Part shown: one piece after another, positions 1,605-5,981 of the stretch
Numbering within the stretch: the stretch's first letter is position 1
Layout of the letters: every line of letters begins with the position of its first letter
Source of the DNA: Candidatus Gastranaerophilales bacterium
GTDB taxonomy: Bacteria; Cyanobacteriota; Vampirovibrionia; Gastranaerophilales; Gastranaerophilaceae
Assembly (NCBI GenBank): GCA_947624645.1
Contig: CANQLG010000009.1
Span: 1 to 64,000 of the forward strand
Reading direction: 5' to 3'
DNA length: 64,000 nucleotides
The notes under the pieces: generated by a model
The model's input: the letters and a program-made list of their open reading frames with translations, nothing else
Databases searched by the model: none
Told to the model about the DNA's origin: nothing
Made by a program: the position numbers and the translations under genes

Positions 1605-2924
1605 TTATTTGTTTATTTTGTTAAACTTGTATCTTGCGGCAGCCGCCTGTACAAATCCCATAACACATAAAGATATTGCAAGTGAAAGCCAGTATCCTCT
1701 CAGAGATAAATGATATTTACCGACAAATAATATAGCTGCCGGCATGCCGACTAACCAATATCCCGTTAATACTGCCGCCGAAACAAATTTGGTCATTTTA
1801 AATCCCTTTAAAATGCCTCCCGATACCACCTGAAAACCGTCAAATACTTGATACATTGCGGCAATACTTACTAACGGAATCGCTATTTTTAAAACTTCTT
1901 TGTCTGATGTAAACAGCTTTATCAATTGTTCGGGAAATAAAGCAAGAATGATTCCCGCAAAAGCCATAAAACCTACGCCCATTATTAACCCCGAATATGC
2001 ATATTTTTTTATTTCTATCGGTTTTTCCGCTCCGAAAAAATATGATACTTTTACGGCTACTGCCGTTGATATAGCTAAAGGCACCATAAATGACGCTGAA
2101 GATATTGTTACAAGTATATTATGTACGGCTGCCAATATCCCTGCTTCTCGGCCGACAAGTATTGTTATAATATTAAACGCTAAAAATTCCAATAAAAATG
2201 CGGCACCAATTGGTGAACCGACTTTTATTAATTGTTTCATATATGAAAAATCCAATCGGGATTTAAAATCAATAAACCTAAAAATATATATAAACATTAC
2301 AACAGCTGTTAACATCCTGACCAATAATGTGGCAATTGCGGCACCTTTTACACCCATTGCAGGAAATATAGAACACCCAAACACGAACAATACATCAAAT
2401 ATTAAATTTACAACTACTGTCAACAACAGTAAAATATTAGGAAAATTTACGATTTCATATGCTTGCAGAAACTGTTTTATTGCATCAAATAAATATACCC
2501 CGAATATGGAAAATGATACAATACTTATATACTGCTGAATATACGGCACAAGTTTTTCTTCAAACCCCATATACGGAACCATAAACTTTGTCATATAGCA
2601 CAAAAATGTAAATAAACACGCTAAAAATAAAGAAAACACCAAACTTGAAAACAAGTATTTTTTTATCCCCTGTTTAGCACCTCTCATATTCGATAATATT
2701 ATTGAAATAGCGGTCGTAATACCCAGTCCGAAGAAAAAAATTGTAAACAGTATCGAATTTGCAATACTGATTGCAGCTAGTGCATCTATACTGTATTTTG
2801 CAACAACCAATATATCGGTGGCGCCGATTAGAGTATAACCTAAATGCCCGATTAAAATTGGAAATGCAAGTATTATAAGTTCTGAAAAATAATGTTTATA
2901 TGTATTAAGAAGGTTTATTTTCAT
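1605..2924 (-). CDS. MATE-family (MOP superfamily) membrane transporter
   Basis: The protein has about 440 residues and a dozen hydrophobic segments in the two-bundle MATE arrangement. It begins with the family opening ELIILAFPILIGHLGYTLIGATDILVV and contains IFFFGLGITTAISIILSN plus a second-half repeat beginning VGSPIGAAFLLEF. A longer frame reaches 2981, but the ATG at 2924 places translation directly before the MATE core, with a weak GA-rich ribosome site just upstream and a 20-nt overlap with the radical SAM gene. MATE proteins export cationic compounds by Na+ or H+ antiport; related MOP proteins flip polysaccharide lipids. Placement after a glycosyltransferase and a radical SAM enzyme leaves a glycan or natural-product export role possible; substrate is unknown. 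Confidence 0.88.
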   Translation of the reverse strand: MKINLLNTYKHYFSELIILAFPILIGHLGYTLIGATDILVVAKYSIDALAAISIANSILFTIFFFGLGITTAISIILSNMRGAKQGIKKYLFSSLVFSLFLACLFTFLCYMTKFMVPYMGFEEKLVPYIQQYISIVSFSIFGVYLFDAIKQFLQAYEIVNFPNILLLLTVVVNLIFDVLFVFGCSIFPAMGVKGAAIATLLVRMLTAVVMFIYIFRFIDFKSRLDFSYMKQLIKVGSPIGAAFLLEFLAFNIITILVGREAGILAAVHNILVTISSASFMVPLAISTAVAVKVSYFFGAEKPIEIKKYAYSGLIMGVGFMAFAGIILALFPEQLIKLFTSDKEVLKIAIPLVSIAAMYQVFDGFQVVSGGILKGFKMTKFVSAAVLTGYWLVGMPAAILFVGKYHLSLRGYWLSLAISLCVMGFVQAAAARYKFNKINK

Positions 2925-3954
2925 TATCTCTGAGTTTAATATATTCTTCCTTGTGTATTCGCATATCGTTTGCTCTGTCATAAAACTCTACAAACTGCAT
3001 ATTAAGTTCTTTTGTTTTATTTTCGGCATATTCCAACAGTTCATATAAATAATCGGGGATTTTATACTTATTATTTATATACCACCCACCCTCAACATCA
3101 AGAACAACACTGTTGATTCCTGCTTTGACAGTATAATCGAAAAATTTATCAATCTCTTCTTTATTATCATTAAAAGACGGATAGATTATGTATTTTGTTT
3201 TAACTTTATATTTATTCTCCGTTTGAGCCTGAGCATATTTTGCAAGGTTTTCCCAGACTTTATTAAAATGATTTACCCGCTTAATATTTTCGTATGTTTC
3301 AGGACATCCCGAGTCAACTGAAACGACAACGGTAAGTTTTCCCTCTCGAACACCTCGTTCGATTGCTTGAGAATACTTAACTCCTGATGAATGTACTCTT
3401 ATATTGTCACATCCGCAATCTAAAAGCATATTAACCATCGGTTCAAATTCAGGCAATAATGCAGGTTCTCCGCCTCCAAAACCTATTTCTCCTCCGCCTC
3501 TGATTTTTCCCATATCTGCAAGTTTTTTTATTACGGGATACATATTATAATTTTTTCTTGCATTAAAATAATCCGACTGTTCATTTGTAAAACAGTACTT
3601 ACACTTGCAATTACATTGAGTCCAGTGGTTAAATACCATATAATTTATATAATCTTCATCATCCCATTCTCTCTCTTTTAAGAAAAAACACCCCTTACAT
3701 CTGTCTAAAGTTATGCCTTTTTTATTAAGCTCACGCATTTTGCGTTTTTCTTTAAAAAACTTATTCCAATCAATCATTTCACCTTTATAATTATCAATCA
3801 GAATTTGTCTTCCGCCGCCCTCGTGACAATTAAAACAGCACATCTTTATATCTTCATAATCAACGTTAAACCCATGCTGAATATACTCGCAGCTAAGATA
3901 CTTAACATGTTTATTTTCTTTTTTTTGAAACATTGATTTTAATTTATCAAACAC
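2905..3954 (-). CDS. Radical SAM protein with extra N-terminal cysteine motifs
   Basis: The [4Fe-4S]/SAM motif CX3CX2C is formed by C114, C118 and C121 in QCNCKCKYCF, and GFGGGEPALL at about 158-167 is the SAM-binding GGEP loop. Unusually, further cysteines lie before it: CCFNCHEGGG at 39-48 and CKGCFFLKE at 86-94, which could ligate an auxiliary cluster. The protein is 349 residues. It starts with GTG overlapping the TAG stop of the upstream glycosyltransferase (TAGTG), and its end overlaps the MATE gene, so the three are likely co-translated. Some radical SAM enzymes with auxiliary clusters modify peptides or sugars; the substrate here cannot be read from sequence, and no precursor peptide gene was recognised nearby. 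Confidence 0.85.
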   Translation of the reverse strand: MFDKLKSMFQKKENKHVKYLSCEYIQHGFNVDYEDIKMCCFNCHEGGGRQILIDNYKGEMIDWNKFFKEKRKMRELNKKGITLDRCKGCFFLKEREWDDEDYINYMVFNHWTQCNCKCKYCFTNEQSDYFNARKNYNMYPVIKKLADMGKIRGGGEIGFGGGEPALLPEFEPMVNMLLDCGCDNIRVHSSGVKYSQAIERGVREGKLTVVVSVDSGCPETYENIKRVNHFNKVWENLAKYAQAQTENKYKVKTKYIIYPSFNDNKEEIDKFFDYTVKAGINSVVLDVEGGWYINNKYKIPDYLYELLEYAENKTKELNMQFVEFYDRANDMRIHKEEYIKLRDNENKPS

Positions 3955-4727
3955 TATTTATTTTCCTTTAATTTGTATTCCCACCACTTGCAGCCTACAA
4001 TAAATTTATATAAGCCAAACATTAATACGCAGATTATAAAACCACGAATCCCGTTTTTATATCCGCCTTTAAAAAAGAATTTTTCAAAAATTATCCATAA
4101 ACTTTTCCATGTATGATAACAAAAATTGATATTTTTATTCTTTTGTTTTAATTTTTCAATTTCCCAATCTGTATAAGTATCAATGATTTTAAGCCAACCC
4201 GATACAGTTCTGTTTTGAATATGTATAATAGCCAAATTTTTATCTTTTTTGGTTAATTTTAAAGTTTCGCCCTCTGTTACATAAGCTACACCATGGACAT
4301 AAGGAGGATAGACTACCAAATCACGTTTAAAGAATCTTGTAATTATATCGGGATATAATACCTCTAACGGTTCACCCCACCCGTAGGTTACTCTCGGCAT
4401 TGCAAGTGCCGTATAATTTTTTTCATTTTTAATAAATTCATACAAATAGTTTTTCAATTCTTCGCTTACAACTTCATCCGAATCTAAAACCAATACCCAC
4501 TCGTTTGAAGCATTTGAGATTGCGAAATGTCTTGCAGGATCAGCAAAACCTACATTTTCATGCATTACTATTTTGCAATTATATTCTTTTGCAATTTCAA
4601 GTGTCTTATCTGTTGAATACATATCACATACAACTATTTCATCAAAATTTTTTACCGATTCAAGGCACTCTTTAAATGTCTTTTCGCAATTATATGTATT
4701 TATTACAACAGAAATTTTATTCTCCAT
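3954..4727 (-). CDS. Family 2 glycosyltransferase (WaaE/KdtX-like)
   Basis: The 257-residue protein opens with the GT-A signature ISVVINTYNCEKTFKECLES and has the metal/nucleotide-binding acidic motif LVLDSDEVV (DSD at residues 82-84). The C-terminal third is basic with a hydrophobic patch (GFIICVLMFGLYKFIVGCKWWEY), suggesting membrane association. The sequence style, including FADPARHFAISNA and GWLKIIDTYTDWE, resembles WaaE-type transferases that add sugars to lipopolysaccharide core. A GAGG ribosome site precedes the ATG. It is 9 nt downstream of the aminotransferase gene and overlaps the radical SAM gene by one base. A surface-glycan role is inference. Confidence 0.88.
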   Translation of the reverse strand: MENKISVVINTYNCEKTFKECLESVKNFDEIVVCDMYSTDKTLEIAKEYNCKIVMHENVGFADPARHFAISNASNEWVLVLDSDEVVSEELKNYLYEFIKNEKNYTALAMPRVTYGWGEPLEVLYPDIITRFFKRDLVVYPPYVHGVAYVTEGETLKLTKKDKNLAIIHIQNRTVSGWLKIIDTYTDWEIEKLKQKNKNINFCYHTWKSLWIIFEKFFFKGGYKNGIRGFIICVLMFGLYKFIVGCKWWEYKLKENK

Positions 4728-4736
4728 ACGGAACCT

Positions 4737-5981
4737 CTATTCAAAATAAAAACCGTCTTCTTTTAAACGCTTTATTACTTCATGCATCTGCTCTTCCGAT
4801 GCAACAATAGACATTCTGAACCAACCCTCGCCGTTATTGCCGAAACCGTTACCCGGAACCAGCACAACACCGGAAGTTTTTAATACGTCATCGGTAAATT
4901 CTTTTGACGTTTTATATTTTGGAGGAATAGGAAGCCACAGATAAAACGTAGCTTTTGGCGGATTAATTTTATCCATCGGCCAGCCAAGTTCTTTAAATCC
5001 GTCTACTACAATTTTTTGTTTTCTTTCAAACCTCTTATTTGCCTCAACTATATATTCATCACCCTCTTTAGAATTTAATATATCCGAAGCAGCCTTTTGA
5101 ATAGGCTTATATATACCCGTATCTATCGTTGACTTAAGTTTTCCCAATATTCCGACCGCATCGGAATTTCCGCATACCCAGCCTATTCTCCATCCCGTCA
5201 TAGAGTATGGTTTTGAAAAACTGTAAAATTCAACAGCCACATCTTTTGCATTTTCAATCTCAAATACACTATGAGCTTTTGGTGCATTCTCAAATGTTAA
5301 ATCAATATATGCGGCATCAGATATTAAAAGAATATGATGTTTTTTGCAAAAATTTACCGCTTTTTGCAAATATTCTTTTGTACAAACTGCCCCCAAAGGA
5401 TTATTCGGGTAGTTTATCACTAATGCTTTAACTTTATTTTTATCATACCCGTCTTTTTCAAGATTATTCATTGCTTCATCCAAGTCAGGCATATAATTAT
5501 TTTCGGGAGTTAAGGGTATACCATAACCAAATCCGCCCGAAACTTTTACCATTTCTTTATATGAAGCATACCCCGGGTCAGGTATTAATACAATATCTCT
5601 GTCTTTCATGTCGGTTTTAGGGTTTATCAAAGCTCTTATTAAGTTTGCAATACCCTCTTTAGAGCCGATTAAAGCACATATTTCAGATTTCGCATCAAAA
5701 TCAACGCCCGTACGTTTTTTCATATTTTTAGCAATTTCGTCCAACAAATATGATTCACCTTTTACAAGCGTGTATGTATGCATCCCGTCTGTTGATGCAT
5801 ACTCTTTTATTTTATCCGTAACCAATTGCGGAGGCTTTTCAACAGGAGCACCCATTGCCAGAGAAATCGGTGCACGTCCTTTTGCCGTTAATTCAGGAGC
5901 CAGCCTCGCCGTTTCCATTTTTATTTGTATCATTATATATGTTTCTAAAGACTGTACGTAATCGTTAAATAGTTCTTTCAT
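4737..5981 (-). CDS. PLP-dependent class I/II aminotransferase, LL-diaminopimelate type
   Basis: At 414 residues this is a fold-type I aminotransferase. It shows the PLP lysine motif FYSFSKPYSMTGWRIGW, the phosphate-cup Tyr/Asn motifs PDPGYASYKEM and INYPNNPLGAVC, the aspartate pair LISDAAYIDL, and the C-terminal substrate arginine in GWFRMSIV. Overall it resembles DapL-like enzymes, which convert tetrahydrodipicolinate and glutamate to LL-diaminopimelate for lysine and peptidoglycan, as in cyanobacteria and chlamydiae. Other aspartate/alanine aminotransferases share these motifs, so substrate is uncertain. A GGAG ribosome site precedes the ATG, and the gene sits 16 nt after folE2 in the long minus-strand run. 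Confidence 0.85.
   Translation of the reverse strand: MKELFNDYVQSLETYIMIQIKMETARLAPELTAKGRAPISLAMGAPVEKPPQLVTDKIKEYASTDGMHTYTLVKGESYLLDEIAKNMKKRTGVDFDAKSEICALIGSKEGIANLIRALINPKTDMKDRDIVLIPDPGYASYKEMVKVSGGFGYGIPLTPENNYMPDLDEAMNNLEKDGYDKNKVKALVINYPNNPLGAVCTKEYLQKAVNFCKKHHILLISDAAYIDLTFENAPKAHSVFEIENAKDVAVEFYSFSKPYSMTGWRIGWVCGNSDAVGILGKLKSTIDTGIYKPIQKAASDILNSKEGDEYIVEANKRFERKQKIVVDGFKELGWPMDKINPPKATFYLWLPIPPKYKTSKEFTDDVLKTSGVVLVPGNGFGNNGEGWFRMSIVASEEQMHEVIKRLKEDGFYFE

Follow-up and report, generated by a model that had tools for sequence, protein, structure and literature searches.

Radical S-adenosylmethionine (SAM) enzymes usually serve a pathway as one or two members. The present work concerns an enzyme of this kind, rSAM1, which is encoded between a family 2 glycosyltransferase (GT2) and a MATE-family transporter in a Candidatus Gastranaerophilales bacterium (assembly GCA_947624645.1). 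The three genes lie within the first 64,000 nt of contig CANQLG010000009.1, and this whole stretch of DNA is referred to below as the window. The component families are all known. By contrast, in the open-access literature, searched through titles and the openings of abstracts, no description was found of the expansion of such enzymes to dozens of paralogues per genome, nor of the fusion of a radical SAM enzyme with a MATE transporter.

A comparable arrangement is offered by the wgk operon of Streptococcus, which directs the production of tryglysin, one of the radical SAM, ribosomally synthesized and post-translationally modified peptides (RaS-RiPPs). As described (PMC8092268), a SPASM-type radical SAM enzyme and a predicted transporter (wgkB and wgkD) belong to one operon, together with a 21-residue precursor peptide and a RiPP recognition element (RRE) protein. 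The likeness to the window locus consists in the enzyme and the transporter; no equivalent of the precursor or of the RRE protein was found there. In NCBIfam, WgkD is represented by a MATE transporter model, against which the window MATE scores 86 of 510 bits, less than the 158 bits obtained with a NorM-family model. A second likeness would be to the NCBIfam family NF033640 (N_Twi_rSAM), in which an auxiliary cluster domain is placed ahead of the radical SAM domain, as the putative site of rSAM1 would be. The relatives of rSAM1 in its own genome comprise an A-type, which includes rSAM1, and a B-type recovered by profile search. All three B-type copies tested match the NF033640 model over nearly the full length, at 49-57 bits and hence below its cut-off of 170; of two A-type copies tested, one matches in the barrel only (25 bits) and the other not at all. 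Moreover, the model is not among the best 25 of the 26 NCBIfam matches of the window protein (the best at 59 bits), and rSAM1 is not placed in this family. Finally, the barrel fold is common to enzymes of sugar or nucleoside chemistry (BlsE, DesII) and to peptide maturases (SuiB, SkfB), with best VIA-align Z scores of 13.6-14.9 over 214-241 residues at 13-18% sequence identity, the aligned part being mainly the barrel.

A radical SAM-MATE pair conserved in the genus

Conservation of the locus was followed in 32 named loci of Ca. Gastranaerophilales, whose isolate names point to the gut of rabbits, ruminants and birds. One of them (L105) ends within the radical SAM gene, leaving 31 informative loci, and two (L095 and L106) are near-identical; the loci overlap with the genomes that we number with G, so that counts of loci and of same-genus genomes are not independent. 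In all 31 informative loci rSAM1 is followed by the MATE gene, directly in 23 and by way of a fused radical SAM-MATE open reading frame (ORF) in the remaining 8, with identities of 81-94% for rSAM1 and 57-87% for MATE. An orthologue of rSAM1 is present in 30 of 34 other genomes of the genus (79-94% identity), two of these being partial (G010 and G012). G031 has paralogues only, among the rSAM1 matches listed, and the rSAM1 search gave no match in G007, G032 and G018, the last of which (83% complete) has no MATE match either. In other words, the radical SAM-MATE pair is a conserved unit in the genus. All three window genes are under purifying selection: the ratios of non-synonymous to synonymous substitution rates (dN/dS), measured against L077, where all three genes are present, are 0.049 for the radical SAM gene, 0.065 for MATE and 0.103 for the glycosyltransferase (GT), and the values for rSAM1 range from 0.03 to 0.05.

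The fused ORFs (L089, L094, L095, L097, L101, L102, L106 and L107) are 758-782 aa long and align with one another along their whole length, and a Pfam search with one of them returned both the radical SAM and the MatE domains. Their radical SAM half is not rSAM1 itself but a second paralogue, rSAM2, which is its sister. An 835-aa open frame brought up by a profile search in G075 was rejected as a further fusion, since in the DNA there are stop codons between the two genes, and stop codons also part rSAM2 from MATE in L110. A fusion of another kind was seen in G137, where a 644-aa ORF (L157:2978-4912) carries two tandem A-type radical SAM domains.

The association extends to a second genus, g35, in which the order rSAM1-rSAM3-rSAM2-MATE was read in three of three genomes (L108, L109 and L110), with an alpha/beta hydrolase gene after MATE in the first two. 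Directly upstream of this operon, two related long proteins are encoded in L109 (2684-6574) and in L110 (11700-15370); a CHAP domain was found in the member of each pair that was tested.

Functional coupling of enzyme and transporter is argued on the basis of the fusions and of the operon in the second genus. Specifically, we tentatively favour the explanation that a radical tailoring step is coupled to a transporter of envelope or exported molecules, the product of rSAM1 passing to MATE. An earlier note on this stretch, made from the letters alone, had proposed joint expression of all three genes and a link between enzyme and exporter. This proposal is supported for the radical SAM and MATE genes, with the GT falling outside any fixed set.

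In the window itself the three minus-strand genes do overlap, as reported before. The stop codon of the GT2 gene and the start codon of rSAM1 have one base in common (TAGTG), and the MATE frame overlaps rSAM1 by 77 nt from its first ATG (2981) or by 20 nt, the figure given previously, from an internal ATG at 2924. The family labels are also borne out, with GT2 at 80.3 bits for PF00535 (curated cut-off 23.3), MATE at 160.4 bits for PF01554 (24.9) and 222.4 bits for TIGR00797 (147.4), and rSAM1 above the cut-off of PF04055 (1e-15). Among the 29 loci with the aminotransferase gene in view, a GT orthologue lies directly upstream of rSAM1 in four (L077, L095, L096 and L106) and more distantly in one (L087); non-orthologous GT2 genes take the directly upstream place in three (L076, L092 and L097), and a GT2, GT4 or GT9 gene is found between the aminotransferase and rSAM1 in eight. 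The gene order of the window is repeated in L077 and L096, and in L095 and L106 with the second radical SAM enzyme fused to MATE. In the genomes of g35 and g29 that were read, the rSAM1 locus showed no GT. The idea that GT, radical SAM enzyme and MATE form a fixed, self-contained pathway for a modified glycan, which develops a suggestion of the earlier note, can appeal to the overlapping frames and to the repeated order, but the rarity of the GT orthologue in the genus and its absence from the loci of the other two genera largely refute the trio as a conserved set, and we regard such a pathway as very unlikely. Scattered, unlinked orthologues, the pattern which that note had named as fatal to its proposal, are what is seen for the GT, and not for the pair in this genus; in another genus (G069) rSAM1 is found without MATE. 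As a clue to glycan chemistry the GT may still be of use.

The paralogue family and its putative auxiliary cysteine site

What the window alone does not reveal is that rSAM1 is one member of a family that numbers dozens of paralogues per genome. The source genome, of about 2 Mb, has 37 A-type places (expectation value, E, below 1e-25), rSAM1 included, the other copies being 25-47% identical, and a profile search adds nine B-type copies, which brings the number of related copies to about 46. In a tree built from 121 copies, which includes two B-type rows and leaves out one A-type copy cut at the boundary of the fetched sequence, the nearest row belongs to another genome for 30 of 36 rows of the source genome, 33 of 39 of G013, 24 of 28 of G137 and 10 of 10 of G069; the rows of G013 and G137 compare with 43 and 38 matches, as some copies were left out. 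Judged from this tree, most paralogues appear to be old and separately retained, with no sign of a recent burst. In a sample of the phylum, 18 of 292 genomes match the rSAM1/rSAM2 profile (E 1e-12): six are strong matches within the same genus and twelve are weaker ones in other genera, at 1e-13 to 1e-28, two of them over residues 19-260, with no g29 or g35 genome among the 18. G080, of genus g40, has one full-length B-type match.

No A-type copy was found in G007 and G032 (95 and 96% complete) with one A-type protein as the query. In a housekeeping tree G007 falls within a clade of 17 rows (SH-like approximate likelihood ratio test, SH-aLRT, 99), the other members of which carry rSAM1. The A-type paralogues thus appear to have been lost as a set, and hence probably serve one trait. 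Moreover, an orthodox radical SAM enzyme with a C-terminal SPASM domain (L067:8104-9078, G000:C22) is present in five of five genomes with A-type copies and in none of three without them, and we regard it as a candidate core partner. A gene of this kind adjoins an A-type gene in G000, G013, G025 and G137, and was not found in G007, G032 and G058.

Some copies are densely clustered. At L060/L061 (G000:C23:10884-25681), 14 radical SAM genes, 11 of A-type and 3 of B-type, lie on both strands within less than 15 kb, with a PIG-L deacetylase gene alongside and a C-terminal-SPASM radical SAM gene a few kb off. At L065:7802-8665 (G000:C38) a gene for an EamA-type transporter, a second transporter type near the family, adjoins two A-type genes.

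C22, C39, C86 and C89, together with C114/C118/C121 of the CX3CX2C motif, are invariant in 45 of 45 copies of the source genome (36 A-type and 9 B-type), and C40 (kept in 32 of 45) and C43 (4 of 45) are both variable. The truncated A-type copy, omitted from this count, was included in a later one, in which the seven cysteines are kept in 37 of 37 own A-type copies and in 118 of 122 copies over seven genomes; the four exceptions are two B-type copies with other spacing, one shifted alignment and one copy with glycine for a CX3CX2C cysteine. A glycine at the second cysteine of the motif is seen in L108:2217-3197 (G161), where it would reflect a sequencing error or an inactive copy. The earlier note had read C39/C40/C43 and C86/C89 as two extra clusters ahead of the CX3CX2C motif. 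The residues are indeed present, but C22 was missed and C40 and C43 vary, and the conservation pattern points to C22/C39/C86/C89 as one putative N-terminal auxiliary site of SPASM/twitch-like character rather than two clusters.

The window protein has no match to the SPASM domain PF13186 at E <= 0.01, and in both B-type copies tested this domain is found ahead of the barrel, at residues 7-73 (1e-14 and 7e-13). Profile comparison of the A-type and B-type N-termini is weak (P 0.017, probability 2.7%, over the first half only, with C22 and C39; controls 0.27 and 0.71), and that of the C-terminal halves gave P 0.00023. In the AlphaFold model of rSAM1 (predicted local distance difference test, pLDDT, 82.6; predicted template modelling score, pTM, 0.82), strands at residues 28-31 and 36-38 and a helix at 63-78 lie between the N-terminal cysteines, a secondary structure that would be compatible with a twitch-like fold. 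A structure search with the whole model, in which the alignments covered mainly the barrel and barely probed the N-terminal site, showed that, among the matches listed, the barrel resembles those of SuiB, PflA, SkfB and BlsE.

The barrel also brings up viperin, and with it the thought of an antiviral enzyme, through matches to the PADLOC pVip models (1.7e-15) and to the NCBIfam viperin model (3.6e-13). Such matches, however, span the shared barrel only (residues 104-263), and the score of 49.3 bits stays far under the NCBIfam cut-off of 180 and is exceeded by that for MoaA (59.1 bits); to our knowledge, an N-terminal auxiliary site of the kind proposed for rSAM1 is absent from viperin. A viperin identity was rejected on account of this barrel-only match under the cut-off, and we consider it extremely improbable.

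Substrate, transport and the place of MATE

In the favoured explanation, that is, radical tailoring coupled to transport, rSAM1 would possess, ahead of the radical SAM barrel, an auxiliary site for iron and sulphur of the SPASM/twitch type, and its radical chemistry would take place in the cytoplasm and modify a building block of the cell envelope or of an exported molecule. The precursor of a glycan or of a small molecule would be a likelier building block than a peptide encoded nearby. The MATE transporter, produced from the same operon, would then receive the modified product, plausibly by hand-over at the membrane, because in some relatives one ORF joins a sister radical SAM enzyme to MATE. 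The GT would act as an optional decorating enzyme, and the A-type paralogues, 37 in number and for the most part old and kept apart, would serve one trait.

A glycan or small-molecule substrate is weakly favoured because of the neighbouring genes. In addition to the GT2, GT4 and GT9 genes already mentioned, these are the dTDP-rhamnose genes that adjoin MATE in two (L112 and L176) of nine loci taken from genomes without A-type copies (L112-L117, L119, L176 and L178), a phosphoglucomutase-like gene and a PIG-L deacetylase gene that directly adjoin radical SAM genes in the source genome, and a DegT-type aminotransferase gene about 8 kb from the radical SAM array.

No precursor peptide had been seen when the letters were first read, and none was established in the present work. 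The gaps beside the three window genes measure 66 nt at most; of 259 gaps that flank 132 radical SAM genes elsewhere, 190 are of 60 nt or less. In the gaps of more than 60 nt, 89 small ORFs (20-69 aa) were screened, the window locus and L076-L107 being outside this screen. Two pairs passed. One joins unrelated loci (E 1.4e-4), and the other is left as a weak candidate (17 residues, 65% identity, E 4e-6; L062:15404-15541 and L130:3857-3953), placed away from the window locus in the gap that separates two other conserved, divergently oriented paralogues, where it may be regulatory DNA or a tiny ORF. Because gaps are so short in the window, and mostly so elsewhere with a single weak pair, it is unlikely that a gene next to that of the enzyme encodes a substrate peptide. 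A Pfam search for a PqqD-type/RRE domain, which divergent RREs can escape, gave no match in the window protein, two A-type and two B-type proteins, one double protein and one fusion.

A different possibility is that rSAM1 and its paralogues act in trans, each on a peptide or protein whose gene lies elsewhere, with MATE exporting the processed peptide as in the streptococcal RaS-RiPP systems. Most SPASM/twitch radical SAM enzymes whose function is known mature peptides, which counts in favour of this view, as does the presence of SuiB and SkfB among the nearest folds. Dozens of distinct conserved paralogues would also fit one enzyme per target, and the paired long proteins upstream of the g35 cassette, with CHAP in the tested one of each pair, can be read in the same sense. 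The wgk operon, in which a predicted transporter accompanies an enzyme of the SPASM radical SAM class, provides a precedent (PMC8092268). Against maturation in trans speak the short gaps with their one weak ORF pair and the lack of a PqqD-type domain by Pfam in the seven proteins, and we consider it conceivable, though on balance unlikely.

The transporter, in turn, is more widespread in the taxonomic family than its link to the radical SAM enzyme. Because G007 and G032 retain MATE without a detectable A-type copy, MATE has its own role. In G007 the locus reads aminotransferase, hisH-like, MATE, with rSAM1 gone, and in G032 MATE lies at a different site. The profile of the fusion protein matches 111 of 117 genomes of the family, mostly over the MATE part alone (about nine places were scored per genome), and among the matches listed the radical SAM part is covered in nine genomes of 3 of 41 genera. 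By eye, L113 holds a MATE-hydrolase pair without a radical SAM gene. Conversely, G069, of genus g29, has rSAM1 (60% identical) at the same locus as the window, in the order aminotransferase, hisH-like, rSAM1, alpha/beta hydrolase, pyrH-like and frr-like (the last two assigned by eye), and its MATE is elsewhere (L111).

These observations weigh against a coupling of tailoring and transport, and further points add to them. Most paralogues have no adjoining transporter gene; the AlphaFold model of the fusion is poor (pLDDT 69.2, pTM 0.52), showed no interface and was not used; the evidence for an apparent loss as a set comes from two draft genomes queried with one A-type protein, and concerns A-type copies only; and a ketopantoate reductase-like neighbour tracks the A-type pattern loosely, being strong in three, weak in one and absent in one of five A-type genomes, and absent in the three without. 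The glycan hints, too, are few and tentative, and single out no substrate. That MATE is common without radical SAM neighbours and retained where A-type copies are missing, and that rSAM1 occurs in G069 without it, would fit an independent MATE to which the radical SAM gene is merely a positional neighbour. Mere position, however, can hardly account for the fusion ORFs in eight loci, nor for the order rSAM1-rSAM3-rSAM2-MATE in g35, a genus in which, in G137, the aminotransferase locus lies elsewhere (L180) without a radical SAM gene; we therefore find a purely positional linkage rather improbable. Returning to tailoring coupled to transport, the wide independence of MATE suggests that the enzyme modifies something that MATE already handles, or that it was added to MATE.

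Taken further, the data would be compatible with one gut lineage of Gastranaerophilales in which about 40 parallel radical SAM enzymes, with the auxiliary cluster ahead of the barrel, mostly descend from old duplications, are gained or lost together and act on one kind of exported or envelope product, with the radical SAM-MATE fusion coupling chemistry to transport; it is doubtful that this whole picture will hold in all its parts. Dozens of intact, mostly old paralogues in a genome of about 2 Mb, set against close relatives with none detected, make for a natural gain/loss comparison through which the substrate could be sought, and the fusions suggest a direct link from radical tailoring to membrane transport.

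Features of the window locus and its surroundings

Table 1. Genes of the window locus and the markers on either side
Feature	Positions	Strand	Remarks
GT2 (family 2 glycosyltransferase)	3954-4727	minus	257 aa; optional neighbour in relatives
rSAM1 (radical SAM enzyme)	2905-3954	minus	349 aa; putative N-terminal SPASM/twitch-like site, then CX3CX2C
MATE-family transporter	1605-2981	minus	longest ORF 458 aa; likely start 2924 (439 aa)
LL-diaminopimelate aminotransferase-like (class I/II aminotransferase)	4737-5981	minus	upstream marker; under the NCBIfam LL-diaminopimelate aminotransferase cut-offs
pyrH (UMP kinase)	813-1538	minus	downstream marker
ORF	249-809	minus	downstream marker

The last of these ORFs we take, by its sequence, to be frr (ribosome recycling factor). 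With regard to a mobile context, rSAM1 had no match in phages or plasmids and the rSAM1 alignment none in viral contigs. The fusion protein matched 147 plasmid records, in none of which did a single place span 80% of the query, and a mobile element was rejected; the best 8 of the 147 matches are to the MATE part. As to the upstream side of the locus, a hisH-like ORF, the label having been checked by search for one ORF of the 22, lies between the aminotransferase-like gene and rSAM1 in 22 of the 29 loci (within L076-L107), in the place that GT2 occupies in the window.

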